NCBI RefSeq assembly: GCF_002866065.1
Contig: NZ_LNJZ01000005.1
Span: 354,144-418,143 of the forward strand
DNA length: 64,000 nt
Source of the DNA: Thiopseudomonas denitrificans
GTDB lineage: Bacteria; Pseudomonadota; Gammaproteobacteria; Pseudomonadales; Pseudomonadaceae
Reading direction: 5' to 3'
The position numbers and the translations under genes are program-made. This document shows positions 28,394 through 36,983 of the stretch, one piece after another. The notes under the pieces were generated by a model. It saw only the letters and a list, made by a program, of their open reading frames with translations, was not told the origin of the DNA and searched no databases. Every line of letters begins with the position of its first letter. Within the stretch, counting starts at the first letter, position 1.

Positions 28394-28538
28394 ATTTCTC
28401 TGGCTGATGGTTGCAAGGGGGCCGGAATGGCAGGCAGTGCCGCCGGGTGGAAAACCAACAGGGATCAAGGCTGTTAATGGATACCAATGATATATATACG
28501 TCGGACACTGCCGGCAGATTAAACATTTGGAGGTTTGC

Positions 28539-28925
28539 TTGAACAAGAACATGAAAATCCTGATTGTTGATGACTTTTCAACAATGAGGCGGATCATCAA
28601 GAACCTCTTGCGTGACCTCGGCTTTACCAATACCGAGGAAGCCGATGACGGTTCCACCGCATTGCCTATGCTGCAAAGCGGCAACTTCGATTTTCTGGTG
28701 ACCGACTGGAACATGCCGCAGATGACCGGCATCGACCTGCTGCGCGCAGTCCGGGCCGATGAGCGTCTCAAGCATTTGCCGGTGCTGATGGTTACGGCCG
28801 AAGCCAAGCGGGACCAGATCATCGAAGCGGCCCAGGCCGGCGTCAACGGATATGTGGTCAAGCCTTTTACTGCACAAGCGTTGCAGGACAAGATCGAGAA
28901 GATTTTTGAGCGCGTCAACGGTTGA
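28539..28925 (+). CDS. cheY: Chemotaxis response regulator CheY
   Basis: Single-domain receiver that binds the flagellar switch when phosphorylated by CheA. The phosphoacceptor Asp is in TDWNMP, with the acidic pair in ILIVDDFS and the conserved Lys in [12 protein letters not shown] at 28539 is chosen because GGAGG ends five bases before it; the ATG at 28551 gives the usual 124-aa product but would be 17 nt from that site. The stop overlaps the cheZ start. Confidence 0.95.
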
Positions 28926-29737
28926 TGCGGTCCGATTCGGGGTTGGCCGTGACACAATACGAGAGCATACAGGCCCGTTTGCAACAGGCCGTAGAACAGC
29001 ATGCCGGGCGCCTGCAAGAGCACCTGGCTGCCGGTGACTGGGCGGCCGCAGCACAGCTGGTTGACCAAATCAATGACATCCGCAACCAGAGCCTGTACGA
29101 GGAAGTGGCCAAGCTGACGCGAGAGTTGCACAGCGCCATTCTGGATCTGCAGATCGAGAGCGGCACTCCCCATGCACAGGAAATGTCGCAGATCAACGAT
29201 GTCAACGAACGGCTGAACTATGTCATGAACATGACGGAAAAAGCAGCCAATGACACGATGGACCTGGTTGAGGCCAGCGCTCCGCTGGTCAACTACATCA
29301 GTTATGAAGCACAAAGCCTGACCGCTGACTGGCAGCGATTTACCCGGCGCGAAATGCCGCTGGACGAATTCAGGGACCTGGCGCGCCGTGTCGAGGCCTT
29401 TTTGCTGCGCAGCCTGCACGACAGTGACCAGATGTCGGCCCATCTCAATGACATACTGACAGCCCAGAGCTTTCAGGACCTGACCGGCCAGGTGATCAAG
29501 CGTGTCACCGAGCTGATTGGCTATGTGGAAGACAGCCTAGCCCGCATGGGCGGCATGGCCAGAACCGTTGATCTGGTTGCTGGCATAGAGCACGACCCGG
29601 AAACCCTGCAAAAAAGCAGTCAGCCCCGACAAAGTGACTCCAGGGGTGAAGGTCCGCAGATTCGTGCCGATAAAGGAGAAGATGTCGTATCTAATCAGGT
29701 TGATGTCGACGATTTATTATCCAGCTTAGGGCTGTAA
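28925..29737 (+). CDS. cheZ: CheY-phosphate phosphatase CheZ
   Basis: 270-aa helical phosphatase of CheY-P. The helical-hairpin region holds DVNERLNYVMNMTEKAAN and the active-site helix ILTAQSFQDLTGQVIKRV, with the catalytic Gln in the QDLTGQ segment. A flexible linker leads to the CheY-binding tail VDVDDLLSSLGL at the extreme C-terminus. The ATG overlaps the cheY stop by one base. Confidence 0.96.
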   Translation: MRSDSGLAVTQYESIQARLQQAVEQHAGRLQEHLAAGDWAAAAQLVDQINDIRNQSLYEEVAKLTRELHSAILDLQIESGTPHAQEMSQINDVNERLNYVMNMTEKAANDTMDLVEASAPLVNYISYEAQSLTADWQRFTRREMPLDEFRDLARRVEAFLLRSLHDSDQMSAHLNDILTAQSFQDLTGQVIKRVTELIGYVEDSLARMGGMARTVDLVAGIEHDPETLQKSSQPRQSDSRGEGPQIRADKGEDVVSNQVDVDDLLSSLGL

Positions 29738-29749
29738 GGAGAGCTTGCG

Positions 29750-31882
29750 ATGAGCTTCGAAGCCGATGAAGAAATTCTCCAGGATTTTTTGGTGGAAGCC
29801 GGAGAAATTCTCGAGCTGTTGTCCGAGCAGCTGGTTGAACTGGAGAGTTCCCCGGACGACATGAACTTGCTGAATGCGATCTTCCGTGGCTTTCATACGG
29901 TCAAGGGCGGTGCCGGCTTTTTGCAGCTCAACGAGCTGGTTGAGTGTTGTCATGTGGCTGAAAACGTATTTGACATCCTGCGCAAGGGTGAGCGCCGGGT
30001 CAGCGCGGAGCTGATGGATGTGGTGCTGGAAGCGCTCGACAACGTCAACAGCATGTTTCATCAGGTGCGCGAGCGTACCGAGGTTACCCCGGCTCCGGCC
30101 GCGCTGCTGGAGCAGCTGGCCATTCTGGCCGAGCCCGAGTCTGCCCAGCCTGCCGTGGCCGAGGAGACGGCAGAAGAAGTCGACGAAGCCGATCGCGAAT
30201 TCGAACAGATGCTGGCCATGAGTTCTCCGGAACCGCCGGAGCCGGCTCCCGGTGATGCCAGTGACATTATCAGTGAAGATGAGTTCGAGGCGCTGCTCGA
30301 CCAGCTGCATGGCGAGGGTCGCGGGCCGGCGGCCACAGCTGTTGCCCCGGCCGCTACAGAGGCTGCCACGGGCGATGAAATTACCGAAGATGAATTTGAG
30401 GCATTGCTCGACCAGCTCCACGGCGAAGGCAAGTTCGGCGGAGTGGAAAACGTAGCGGATACCGCCGCAGCCAGCGCCGGCGAGGAGCAGAAGCCAGACA
30501 GTGATGAAATCACTGATGACGAATTTGAGTCCCTGCTTGACCAGCTGCATGGCAAGGGTCGCTTCCAGGTGCGCCCCATGGCAAATGATGGCGCTGCCAC
30601 CCCGGCTGCCAGCCAGCAAAAGTCTGCCGCACCGGTTGCCAAGGCAGCGCCGGCAGCTCCTGTCGCGACACGCAACTCTTCGGCAGCTCCTGCCGCGACA
30701 CGCAACTCTTCGTCAGCTCCGGTTGAAGAGACCACTGTACGGGTCGATACTGCCCGCCTTGATGACATCATGAACATGGTTGGCGAGCTGGTGCTGGTGC
30801 GTAACCGGCTGGTTCGCCTCGGCCTGGACAGTGAAGACGAGGACATGGCCAAGGCCGTGTCCAACCTGGATGTGGTCACGGCTGATCTGCAATCTGCCGT
30901 GATGAAAACACGCATGCAGCCGATCAAGAAGGTGTTTGGCCGCTTTCCGCGACTGGTGCGTGACATGGCGCGCAGCCTGAAAAAGGAAATCAGCCTGGAG
31001 CTGGTGGGTGAAGATACCGACCTCGATAAAAACCTGGTTGAAGCACTGGCCGACCCGCTGGTGCACCTGGTGCGCAACTCCGTGGACCACGGTATTGAAA
31101 TGCCGGACGAGCGCGAAGCCGCCGGCAAGAGCCGTACCGGCAAGGTGGTGTTGTCCGCTGCCCAGGAGGGCGATCATATCCTGCTGATGATCACCGATGA
31201 CGGCAAGGGCATGAATGCCGATGTGCTACGTGCCAAAGCAGTGGAAAAGGGCATGCTGGACAAGGATGCGGCCGACCGCCTGACCGAGCTGGAGTGCTAT
31301 AACCTGATTTTTGCACCGGGTTTCTCCACCAAGACGGAAATCTCCGACGTGTCCGGACGTGGCGTGGGCATGGATGTGGTCAACACCAAGATTGCCCAGC
31401 TCAACGGCAGCGTCAATGTGTATTCCAAGCCGGGCGAAGGCTCGCAGGTGGTCATCAAGGTTCCCTTGACGCTGGCGATCATGCCGACCCTGATGGTGAT
31501 GCTGAATGAGCATGCCTTTGCCTTCCCGCTGGTCAACGTCAATGAAATCTTCCATCTGGACCTGTCGCGCACCAACATTGTTGACGGCCAGGAAGTGGTG
31601 ATTGTGCGCAACAAGGCGCTGCCGCTGTTTTATCTCAGCCGCTGGCTGCAGCCGGAGCGTCGGCACGAACAGCAAAAAGATGGCCATGTGGTGCTGGTCA
31701 GTGTCGGTGACAAGCGCGTCGGCTTTGTCGTCGATCAGCTGATCGGGCAGGAAGAAGTGGTGATCAAGCCGCTGGGGCGTGGTTTGCAGGGAACCCCCGG
31801 CATGTCCGGTGCAACCATTACCGGTGACGGCCGCATTGCCCTGATCCTGGATGTGCCCGGGGTGCTGAAACACTACGCCTGA
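29750..31882 (+). CDS. cheA: Chemotaxis histidine kinase CheA
   Basis: 710-aa kinase of the flagellar chemotaxis array. The P1 domain carries H49 in FRGFHTVKGGAGF. Residues about 130-325 form a long acidic, Ala/Pro-rich linker that replaces a recognisable P2 domain and contains three copies of an ITEDEFEALLDQLHGEG-like motif (about 173-190, 209-227, 252-270). P3 dimerisation starts near DTARLDDIMNMVGELV, P4 has NSVDHGIE (N box), DDGKGM (G1) and GRGVGMDVV (G2), and P5 is the CheW-like C-terminus. Confidence 0.97.
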   Translation: MSFEADEEILQDFLVEAGEILELLSEQLVELESSPDDMNLLNAIFRGFHTVKGGAGFLQLNELVECCHVAENVFDILRKGERRVSAELMDVVLEALDNVNSMFHQVRERTEVTPAPAALLEQLAILAEPESAQPAVAEETAEEVDEADREFEQMLAMSSPEPPEPAPGDASDIISEDEFEALLDQLHGEGRGPAATAVAPAATEAATGDEITEDEFEALLDQLHGEGKFGGVENVADTAAASAGEEQKPDSDEITDDEFESLLDQLHGKGRFQVRPMANDGAATPAASQQKSAAPVAKAAPAAPVATRNSSAAPAATRNSSSAPVEETTVRVDTARLDDIMNMVGELVLVRNRLVRLGLDSEDEDMAKAVSNLDVVTADLQSAVMKTRMQPIKKVFGRFPRLVRDMARSLKKEISLELVGEDTDLDKNLVEALADPLVHLVRNSVDHGIEMPDEREAAGKSRTGKVVLSAAQEGDHILLMITDDGKGMNADVLRAKAVEKGMLDKDAADRLTELECYNLIFAPGFSTKTEISDVSGRGVGMDVVNTKIAQLNGSVNVYSKPGEGSQVVIKVPLTLAIMPTLMVMLNEHAFAFPLVNVNEIFHLDLSRTNIVDGQEVVIVRNKALPLFYLSRWLQPERRHEQQKDGHVVLVSVGDKRVGFVVDQLIGQEEVVIKPLGRGLQGTPGMSGATITGDGRIALILDVPGVLKHYA
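30652..30711 (+). repeat. 30-bp tandem direct repeat inside cheA
   Basis: Two adjacent 30-bp units (30652-30681 and 30682-30711) differ at a single position and are followed by a partial third. They encode AAPVATRNSS and AAPAATRNSS in the linker just before P3. The near identity suggests recent duplication or slippage; length may vary between strains. Confidence 0.75.
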
Positions 31883-31911: not shown

Positions 31912-33087
31912 ATGGCTGTAAAAGTCTTGATTGTTGATGATTCGGGTTTTTTCCGTCGCCGGTTGAGCGAGATCCTGGCGGCCGACTCCCGTATCGAGGT
32001 GGTGGGCACTGCCAGCAATGGCCAGGAGGCGATCGACAAAACTCTTGAGTTGCGCCCGGACGTGATCACCATGGACTACGAAATGCCGGTCATGGACGGA
32101 ATTTCCGCCGTACGGCAGATCATGCAGCGTTGTCCGACCCCGGTATTGATGTTTTCTTCGCTGACCCATGAGGGGGCGCGAGTAACCCTGGATGCGCTGG
32201 AAGCGGGCGCGGTTGATTATCTGCCGAAAAATTTCGAGGATATTTCCCGCAATCCGCAAAAAGTCCGGCAGATGCTGTGTGACAAGGTCCAGGCACTGGC
32301 ACGAACCAATCGCGGGGGGCTTGGCCAGCGGACGTTGTCGTCGCTACGCAGCACGGCTCCGGTGACAACACCGTCTGTGGCGCGTCCCGCTGCGGCAGCG
32401 GTGACGGCAAGCGCGGGCACTGCCCGGAGCCTGCGCACCACCCGCACACCGCTCGCAGACATGCCGGCTGCGGACGTACCGGCAGCGGGGCCCGCTGCCG
32501 GCGCTGCGGTTAAAGCCCAGCGCCGGGCCTACAAACTGGTGGCCATCGGAACCTCGACAGGTGGCCCGGTTGCCTTGCAACAGGTGTTGACAGCCTTGCC
32601 GGCCAGTTTTCCCGCCCCGATCGTACTGGTCCAGCACATGCCCGGTACCTTTACCCGGGCGTTTGCCGACCGGCTCGACAAGCTGTGCAACATCAGCGTG
32701 AAGGAAGCCGAAGACGGCGATATCCTGCGACCGGGGCTTGCCTTGCTGGCACCTGGCGGCAAGCAGATGATGATTGATACCCGTGGCCAGGTGCGCATCC
32801 TGCCCGGTGACGAGCGCCTCAATTACAAGCCCAGCGTCGATGTCACCTTTGGCTCGGCGGCCAAGGTTTACCAGGACAAGGTACTGGCAGTGGTGCTGAC
32901 CGGCATGGGTTCGGACGGACGCGAAGGTGCCCGCTTGCTGAAAGCGGCCGGCAGCCAGGTCTGGGCACAGGACGAAGCCAGCTGTGTGATCTATGGCATG
33001 CCGATGGCCGTGGTCAAGGCCGGCCTGGCTGACCAGATAGTTTCACTCAACGACGTCGGCCCGTCCCTGGCAGAGGCTTGCATCTGA
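31912..33087 (+). CDS. cheB: Chemotaxis protein-glutamate methylesterase CheB
   Basis: 391-aa two-domain response regulator that removes methyl groups from chemoreceptors. The receiver has VLIVDDSG and the phosphoacceptor D55 in TMDYEMP. An Ala/Thr-rich linker (about residues 140-205) leads to the esterase domain with the catalytic Ser in GTSTGGP, His in VQHMPG and Asp in GMGSDG. The stop overlaps the motC start. Confidence 0.97.
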   Translation: MAVKVLIVDDSGFFRRRLSEILAADSRIEVVGTASNGQEAIDKTLELRPDVITMDYEMPVMDGISAVRQIMQRCPTPVLMFSSLTHEGARVTLDALEAGAVDYLPKNFEDISRNPQKVRQMLCDKVQALARTNRGGLGQRTLSSLRSTAPVTTPSVARPAAAAVTASAGTARSLRTTRTPLADMPAADVPAAGPAAGAAVKAQRRAYKLVAIGTSTGGPVALQQVLTALPASFPAPIVLVQHMPGTFTRAFADRLDKLCNISVKEAEDGDILRPGLALLAPGGKQMMIDTRGQVRILPGDERLNYKPSVDVTFGSAAKVYQDKVLAVVLTGMGSDGREGARLLKAAGSQVWAQDEASCVIYGMPMAVVKAGLADQIVSLNDVGPSLAEACI

Positions 33088-34813: not shown

Positions 34814-35605
34814 ATGAAAGTTTGGGCCGTGGCAAACCAGAAAGGTGGCGTCGGCAAGACCACCACCACCGTCGCGCTGGCCGGCTTGCTGGCTGATGCC
34901 GGACGCCGGGTGCTGGTGGTTGATCTTGACCCGCACGGGTCACTGACCAGCTATTTCGGCTATGACCCCGATACCCTGGAAAACAGCTGCTATGACCTGT
35001 TTACCGCCGGCGGCAAAGTGGACCCCGAACTGCCGCGCAGCCTGCTGCTGGAAACCAGCCACGAGCGGATCAGCCTGATGCCTTCGAGTACCGCAGTAGC
35101 AGTGCTCGAGCGCCAGTCACTGGGCCAGGGCGGGCTGGGACTGGTGGTCAGCAAGGCGCTGGAGCATCTGTCCGGCGAGTTTGACTTTGCCCTGCTCGAC
35201 AACCCGCCGTTGCTGGGCGTGCTGATGGTCAATGCACTGGCCGCCAGCGAGCTGCTGGTCATCCCGGTGCAGACCGAGTTTCTGGCCATCAAGGGCCTGG
35301 AGAGCATGATCAACACCCTGCACATGGTCAACCGCTCGCGCCGGCAGCCGTTGCCTTACAGCATTGTGCCCACCATGTTCGACCGCCGTACTCAGGCGTC
35401 CCTGTCAACGCTGCGCTATCTGCGCAACCAGTACAACGAACATCTGTGGCAGGCGTACATTCCGATTGATACGCGGCTGCGTGATGCCAGCCGCGCCGGC
35501 CTGGTGCCTTCGGTGCAGGACAAGAACAGCCGGGGCGTACTGGCCTACCGGGTGCTGCTCAAGCATTTGCTGCAGCAGTCGATGCAGATTGAACAGAGCG
35601 CTTGA
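34814..35605 (+). CDS. parC: ParA-like ATPase ParC for polar chemotaxis arrays
   Basis: 263-aa ParA/Soj-type ATPase with deviant Walker A QKGGVGKTTTT, switch LVVDLDPHGSLT and Walker B DNPPLLG. There is no N-terminal DNA-binding domain and no parB nearby, so plasmid-type segregation is unlikely. Its place between the stator genes and a CheW-domain gene matches ParC, which recruits chemoreceptor arrays to the pole in Vibrio and Pseudomonas. The preceding 233-nt gap carries an inverted repeat. Confidence 0.88.
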   Translation: MKVWAVANQKGGVGKTTTTVALAGLLADAGRRVLVVDLDPHGSLTSYFGYDPDTLENSCYDLFTAGGKVDPELPRSLLLETSHERISLMPSSTAVAVLERQSLGQGGLGLVVSKALEHLSGEFDFALLDNPPLLGVLMVNALAASELLVIPVQTEFLAIKGLESMINTLHMVNRSRRQPLPYSIVPTMFDRRTQASLSTLRYLRNQYNEHLWQAYIPIDTRLRDASRAGLVPSVQDKNSRGVLAYRVLLKHLLQQSMQIEQSA

Positions 35606-35685: not shown

Positions 35686-35725
35686 ATAAAATACAGCGAA
35701 CCGATATGCAATCAGGAACAGAGTG

Positions 35726-36415
35726 ATGAAGCCGCACAAGTCGCAAACGGCACTGCAAAACTACCTTGACGGCCTGCTCCAGGAGGTACAGACCGTGCTG
35801 CAGGAAGAACCGGCCGAGCATTCGCCGTCATTGCTGTTGCAAGAACGTGAAGAACAGATCGTCATTTTGCCGACGTTGACCACTCCGGTGGTGCCAGAAC
35901 CGGACGAAATGCCGGCGGCTGTTCCGGCGGCATCCCCGGCCGAGGCTCTGCCCGAATGGACAGACCAGCCCTTCGAATGCCTGCTGTTTGAGGTTGCCGG
36001 CTTGAAACTGGCCGTCCCCCTGGTATGCCTGGGTAGCATTTACCCGCTGGAGGGAGAGGAAATTACGCCCATTTTTGCCCAGCCCGACTGGTTTATCGGT
36101 ATGATGCCGACGCCGGTCGGCAATCTGAAAGTGCTGGATACGGCGCGCTGGGTCATGCCGGAGCGCTATCACGACAAGCTGAGGGACGGTTTTCGTTTTG
36201 TCATTTCCATTGATGGCCATTCCTGGGGGCTGGCCGTCAATGCGGTTTATGAATCAGTCCGCCTGCAGCCGGATGCGGTCAAATGGCGCACTCGCCGGAC
36301 AGGGCGGCAATGGCTGGCCGGTACCATTATCGAACACATGTGCGCACTGCTGGATGTCCAGGCATTGGCGCAGCAGGTCAGTGCAAGGGAAAACGCACAG
36401 GCAACGACAGACTGA
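35726..36415 (+). CDS. parP: ParP-like CheW-domain protein
   Basis: 229-aa protein with an N-terminal amphipathic segment (KSQTALQNYLDGLLQEVQTVL), a Pro/Ala-rich linker and a C-terminal CheW/AIF domain starting near WTDQPFECLLFEVAGLKLAVPL. ParP links ParC to CheA and stabilises polar arrays in Vibrio. The domain lacks the standard CheW pattern seen in the next gene, which supports ParP rather than a second CheW. The ATG at 35726 follows AGGAACAGAG. Confidence 0.82.
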   Translation: MKPHKSQTALQNYLDGLLQEVQTVLQEEPAEHSPSLLLQEREEQIVILPTLTTPVVPEPDEMPAAVPAASPAEALPEWTDQPFECLLFEVAGLKLAVPLVCLGSIYPLEGEEITPIFAQPDWFIGMMPTPVGNLKVLDTARWVMPERYHDKLRDGFRFVISIDGHSWGLAVNAVYESVRLQPDAVKWRTRRTGRQWLAGTIIEHMCALLDVQALAQQVSARENAQATTD

Positions 36416-36503: not shown

Positions 36504-36983
36504 ATGAACATTACATCTGCGAACAGTTCTGAAGATCCTGTCTTGCAGTGGGTTACCTTCCGTCTGGAAGAGGAAACCTATGGCATCAATGTCATGCAAG
36601 TGCAGGAAGTCTTGCGCTATTCCGAAATAGCGCCGGTCCCCGGTGCTCCCGGCTATGTGCTGGGCATCATCAACCTGCGCGGTAATGTGGTGACCGTGAT
36701 TGATACCCGGCAGCGCTTCGGCCTGCCGTCAGCGGGGGTCACCGACAATACGCGCATTGTCATCATTGAAGCGGACAGACAAGTGGTCGGCATCCTGGTT
36801 GATAGCGTGGCTGAGGTGGTTTATCTGCGTCAGTCCGAAATTGAAACCACACCCAATGTCGGCAATGAAGAGGCGGCCAAGTTCATTCAGGGCGTCTGTA
36901 ACAAAAATGACGAACTGCTCATCCTGGTTGATCTGGAAAAGATGATGACCGCACAGGAGTGGGCGGAGCTGGATGATTTCTGA
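36504..36983 (+). CDS. cheW: Chemotaxis coupling protein CheW
   Basis: 159-aa adaptor between chemoreceptors and CheA. WVTFRLEEETYGINVMQVQEVL, APGYVLGIINLRGNVVTVID and VGILVDSVAEVV are the classic CheW signatures. AGGGTAGA precedes the ATG. A sigma-28 promoter 59-85 nt upstream suggests it can be expressed apart from the upstream genes. The stop overlaps the next gene. Confidence 0.97.
   Translation: MNITSANSSEDPVLQWVTFRLEEETYGINVMQVQEVLRYSEIAPVPGAPGYVLGIINLRGNVVTVIDTRQRFGLPSAGVTDNTRIVIIEADRQVVGILVDSVAEVVYLRQSEIETTPNVGNEEAAKFIQGVCNKNDELLILVDLEKMMTAQEWAELDDF

Follow-up and report, generated by a model that had tools for sequence, protein, structure and literature searches.

What occupies the linker between P1 and P3 in a CheA kinase that gives no P2 match, and which protein might it hold? 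The cheA gene in the 64,000-nucleotide stretch of Thiopseudomonas denitrificans DNA analysed here (the window) raises this question, because a first-pass annotation had described a short peptide repeated three times in its linker. The features of the gene are as follows.

29750..31882, + strand: cheA, 710 aa, P1-(linker)-P3-P4-P5, with no P2 family match (ORF and Pfam)
30128..30730, + strand: P1-P3 linker, residues 127-327 (AlphaFold2: four short predicted helices, separated by stretches of low confidence)
30185..30229, + strand: probable decayed fourth copy, EADREFEQMLAMSSP, residues 146-160, predicted helix 146-157 (score of 15, relatives and AlphaFold2)
30269..30313, + strand: repeat 1, ISEDEFEALLDQLHG, residues 174-188, predicted helix 176-186 (motif and AlphaFold2)
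30380..30424, + strand: repeat 2, ITEDEFEALLDQLHG, residues 211-225, predicted helix 213-223 (motif and AlphaFold2)
30509..30553, + strand: repeat 3, ITDDEFESLLDQLHG, residues 254-268, predicted helix 256-267 (motif and AlphaFold2)

Repeat units at the place of a P2 domain

Three 15-residue units lie within positions 30266-30559, and the pattern under which they had been annotated, I[ST][ED]DEFE[AS]LLDQLHG, fits them. Any two units share 12 to 14 of their 15 residues, and 4 to 7 of the residues common to a pair are encoded by different codons. Because identical residues of the copies use different codons, the conserved level is the peptide rather than the DNA, as had been suggested. A relaxed regular expression gave three matches in the linker; when its 218 residues were shuffled 20,000 times, not one match arose. 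The units score 70-75 against their consensus (BLOSUM62), and 5,000 shuffled linkers reached 40 at most. The annotation had also suspected a weaker fourth copy near residue 150. This segment scores just 15 against the unit consensus, yet relatives carry a fuller form at the same place, for example DITDSEFEQLLDALG, and a helix is predicted there, so that residues 146-160 are probably a real but decayed copy.

Among 197 collected copies the I, T/S, E, F, E/D, LL and D columns are conserved, a pattern that is partly fixed by the regular expression used to collect them; the H and G columns, which were left free, are conserved as well (146/197 and 159/197). Over 125 intervals, the distance from one copy to the next varies between 29 and 73 residues, as suits independent sites better than a rigid spacer. 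Comparison of the CheAs of the clade showed that linker conservation is concentrated in the repeat units, and the rest of the linker drifts. A separate 30-bp tandem repeat at 30651-30720 (2.3 copies, 95% match) encodes ATRNSSAAPA-type repeats in the same linker; there the DNA itself is alike, unlike that of the units.

The Pfam domains of the window CheA are Hpt (residues 8-100), H-kinase_dim (328-387), HATPase_c and CheW. No P2 or other CheY-binding family was matched at E 0.01 in any of the 63 clade CheAs scanned, and a CheY-binding match was obtained in one of 18 CheAs outside the clade. The AlphaFold2 model of the window CheA, calculated with 93 sequences, places one isolated helix at each copy and no strand within residues 127-327. 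For L238, a CheA from a different clade, AlphaFold2 with only 15 sequences predicts four strands and three helices at the equivalent place, in an order that we take to be that of a P2 domain. P2 is a folded domain, whereas the window linker contains isolated predicted helices only; the likeness between the two lies in their place between P1 and P3 and in the proposed role in CheY docking. According to PMC10782961, Pfam is insensitive for P2, and CheAs lacking P2 made up more than half in one survey. No P2 fold was seen elsewhere in the linker, and a hidden P2 was rejected for the lack of both a Pfam match and a predicted strand. The idea of several short docking sites in place of P2 is well supported by the missing P2 family in 63 of 63 CheAs, the isolated helices and the conservation within the units.

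Resemblance to the FliM peptide and to the CheZ tail

Two genes directly upstream of cheA bear on the possible ligand.

28527..28925, + strand: cheY, the proposed ligand (Response_reg; 3to5, 'CheY homolog', is the closest PDB sequence)
28922..29737, + strand: cheZ, with C-terminal tail VDVDDLLSSLGL (CheZ family, tails compared)

The stretch GYVVKPFTA and two of the last-helix lysines are common to the encoded CheY and the CheY of PDB chain 2fka. We take 3to5 to be V. cholerae CheY3 and 2fka to be Salmonella CheY.

The best resemblance of the units in sequence is to the N-terminal CheY-binding peptide of FliM rather than to the CheZ tail. The FliM encoded in this genome opens with MAVQDLLSQDEIDALLHG, in which LSQDEIDALL aligns without gaps to the unit consensus ITDDEFEALL. 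The FliM peptide scores 28 against this consensus; with the units taken singly, the scores are 33, 30 and 25. Among 1,074,040 ten-mers taken from 5,343 further six-frame ORFs, only 4 reach 28, and two of these are themselves the N-terminus of a FliM, identified by position in L234 and by sequence in L241. When the consensus was permuted, 25 of 20,000 versions equalled or bettered its score against FliM. The FliM-type peptide is present in 29 of 29 FliM ORFs read, which were found in 28 of the 30 genomes asked and in the window's own genome and were accepted if they had either a FliM signature or the peptide. The units come close to the FliM-type pattern [LI][ST]xxE[IV][DE]xLL but depart from it in having F in place of I/V; a helix is predicted in each. 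The position of FliM D12 is E or D in 192 of 197 repeat copies, where the collecting expression allowed E, D, Q, N, K and A. In the E. coli complex 1F4V, the CheY-P-binding peptide of FliM is the same kind of short, capped amphipathic helix, with the common form [LI][ST]x[DE]E[IF][DE]ALL. The CheA units differ from it in having three or four copies, F for I/V, and an additional conserved DxLHGxG. A helix start of S/T-x-x-E with a hydrophobic face can arise by convergence. Furthermore, a 20-column profile of the repeat did not list the genome's own FliM at E 10 or less, and for this reason we regard the FliM peptide and the units as alike sites and not as one family. A FliM-like SSQDDIDAML also occurs at locus L033, in a FliN-like frame beside FliM that we assume by position to be FliN; 210 of the 1,074,040 ten-mers score as high.

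The first-pass annotation had drawn its clue from the CheZ tail encoded by the preceding gene, and the scores do not support this likeness. The tail has the same D/E-V/F-D/E-x-LL-x-x-L order as the unit, but its similarity is at most marginal: against the window CheZ tail, 13,609 of 20,000 permuted consensuses equal or better the real one, as do 959 of 20,000 against the commoner form of the tail, QDEVDDLLSSLGF. The CheZ tail was therefore set aside as the main clue. The CheZ tail and FliM are reported to use the same face of CheY (PMC3774744).

Spread of the motif and of its candidate partners

The motif marks one CheA clade. Copies were found in all of the 80 named loci, with four copies in 69 CheAs and three in 11; these loci, mostly from Pseudomonas and Stutzerimonas, are the best 80 of 564 confirmed relatives and therefore close ones. 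Among 276 genomes drawn from the same class (Gammaproteobacteria, judging by the named relatives), 220 had a CheA-like match, and 86 of 109 other clade-type places were taken into a class-level set. By a single regular expression, 41 of these 86 CheAs have two copies, 31 have three and 10 have one; one CheA has four, another has five, and two have none. With a looser half-motif expression, at least one match was present in 86 of 87 class-level loci, the window included. The one miss (L226) and the other locus without a match to the first expression (L202) carry divergent copies by eye. No copy was found anywhere in the protein in 18 of 18 other CheAs, defined as those scoring below 600 bits with the clade model in the loci examined; their linkers were delimited for all but two.

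The 20-column profile matched at least 73 of 397 genomes at E 0.01 in a draw from the phylum for which the number of genomes outside the class is not given, and the 73 listed belong to the same class. The matches listed there are CheA-sized frames, apart from a few short frames on contig fragments. Among 18 relatives, 16 had a match at E 10 or less, and every match better than E 0.01 lay within a CheA frame; in the window's own genome, all three matches better than E 0.01 are in the CheA linker. Occurrence of the motif in proteins other than CheA was rejected on the confinement of these E <0.01 matches in relatives to CheA frames. One clade-type CheA with three copies (L152) comes from a genome with no FliM match (G067; one contig, 100% complete).

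The genes of the other candidate partners lie downstream of cheA.

31912..33087, + strand: cheB (Pfam)
34814..35605, + strand: parC-like ATPase (AAA_31; orthologues in the loci of relatives score about 195-322 bits)
35723..36415, + strand: parP-like protein with a CheW-like C-terminal domain (CheW family)
36504..36983, + strand: cheW (Pfam)

The names ParC and ParP are our assumption, from position. An alignment of 30 ParP-like proteins has a single invariant residue, W188. Both genes lie near cheA in 78 of the 80 named loci, and the other two are short contigs. The count covers loci L034-L113; for P. aeruginosa, a 2025 paper states that related ParC/ParP genes are lacking (PMC12410967). At L204 and L170, ParC is followed directly by a CheW-like frame with no recognised ParP.

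ParC was asked for in 24 genomes with a cut-off of 140 bits, and 11 of them gave no match above it; a common second row near 125 bits was taken for chromosomal ParA. Ten of these 11 showed only weak ParP rows, at 30-43 bits, where the CheW rows of ParP-positive genomes lie near 32-35 bits; in the remaining one, G196, ParP scores 102 bits. The absence of ParP from the ten is less certain than that of ParC, and the ParP model can miss ParP: G275, with ParC at 210 bits, has no ParP row above 34 bits, and G046 reaches only 53 bits. All ten genomes retain recognisable copies in CheA. The copies are canonical, with LHG, in six (G173, G056, G187, G060, G189 and G037) and divergent in four: G044, G207 and G296, the latter two with the N-terminal half only, and G059, where they are degenerate. 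In G207 (L182) and G296 (L220), ITD[DE]EFExLL is kept, DQLHG is lost, and an LPEGxDPD-like stretch lies upstream of the copies.

Within the same ten genomes, CheB gave no match in G173, a draft in 240 contigs, and in G296, which is 99% complete in 7 contigs and whose copies are without the LHG end. CheZ gave no match in G056, G187 and G059 and a weak one in G044, G296 and G207. CheY was found in nine of the ten; it was not found in G173, where the cheA contig stops just past cheZ. Because these genomes severally keep the motif without them, ParC/ParP, CheB and CheZ seem not to be needed for its retention.

Candidate ligands and a proposed docking mechanism

We propose that the units dock CheY as a row of FliM-like peptides where P2 would otherwise be, a reading whose chances we judge to be evenly balanced. 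Each unit would form an amphipathic helix of ~11 residues with an S/T-x-x-E start, acting as a short linear docking peptide, and the units would be strung on a disordered Ala/Pro/acidic tether at the place of P2. Each would bind the α4-β5-α5 face of CheY, as the FliM N-terminal peptide and the CheZ tail do; the F and LL of the unit would stand in for the I and LL of FliM, and its E/D for the FliM aspartate for which modelling gave a salt bridge with a lysine of CheY. Three or four tandem copies could hold several CheY molecules near phospho-P1, raising the local concentration as P2 does, and if the sites prefer CheY-P as FliM does, the array could also retain the product. We infer CheY binding, the face used and the effect on phosphotransfer. 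CheY-EYFP was located at the CheA cluster in P. aeruginosa, as described in PMC12410967, and this gives independent support to CheY as the partner.

The annotation had named CheY, CheB and ParC/ParP as possible ligands. CheY fits best, by way of the FliM peptide and not of the CheZ tail, and both CheB and ParC/ParP are disfavoured as the only partner. The case for ParP starts from the AIF domain of this protein, which is described as binding the LID region of CheA (PMC5706961, PMC7534058), a region placed between P2 and P3 (PMC7534058). The units may be the ParP-binding element of this LID, gripped by the CheW-like AIF and tying the arrays to polar ParC. Like the LID of Vibrio CheA, the repeats occupy the stretch before P3 with ParC/ParP genes nearby in most loci, and the window linker appears to correspond to the published LID, which would include the units. 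The invariant Trp of the ParP alignment may also correspond to W305, which is reported to be needed for CheA binding in Vibrio (PMC5706961). However, LID is described as occurring only with ParC/ParP, whereas the window-type motif persists in the ten genomes in which neither was detected. The force of these genomes is limited by the ParP model, as G275 (nothing above the CheW level) and G046 indicate; they nevertheless disfavour ParC/ParP as the sole explanation, and we consider the ParP reading unlikely. G207 and G296, which belong to one family and gave no ParP match, have CheAs that lose LHG, so the LHG end may have a role of its own, perhaps in ParP binding. Docking of CheW-like folds, either CheW or P5, would explain ParP binding by the LID as well as retention of the motif without ParP, and the restriction of the motif to one CheA clade fits an array-type trait. 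The ten genomes do not speak against CheW or P5 as partner, because both accompany every such CheA. On the other hand, the comparisons made here brought up no likeness to any ligand known for CheW or P5, and the helices of the CheA model are isolated between low-confidence stretches; we rate this docking as distinctly improbable.

P2 is described as docking CheY and CheB alike (PMC11978298), and the units could likewise dock the receiver domain of CheB rather than CheY. The two motif-bearing genomes with no CheB match, G173 and G296, speak against CheB as the only partner even with the draft state of the one and the truncated copies of the other, and leave this reading extremely unlikely. The units could also be a convergent helix-capped spacer, SHOCT-like and with no specific partner. 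They have the S/T-x-x-E capping box, and SHOCT (PF09851) matches a repeat of the window CheA at 21.6 bits, below the curated cut-off of 27; at E 0.01 it matches 35 of 63 clade CheAs, with bits against the cut-off given for the window protein only. A spacer is nevertheless very improbable, given that F, LL and D are near-invariant and H and G conserved in an otherwise drifting linker, and that the variable spacing suits independent sites.

Linear docking of CheY in place of P2 would be a new form of a known docking, and we hold CheY to be the partner with moderate confidence. The repeat motif strings had no match in the literature searched. More tentatively, and at somewhat less than an even chance, this P2-less CheA clade may have swapped a folded CheY-docking domain for FliM-mimic peptides, so that the array would be a multivalent store of CheY, perhaps of CheY-P, in competition with the motor, and ParP, in genomes that have it, may share or compete for the sites.

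If the units do mimic FliM, the array and the motor would read the same face of CheY, and CheY docking by the units would predict competition between array and motor for that face. CheY capture by P2-less CheAs would then be testable in Pseudomonas with one peptide and point mutations, and the region concerned with polar localisation would have a second, more general job. The presence of FliM-like peptides, together with no sign of P2, suggests how such kinases may load CheY.
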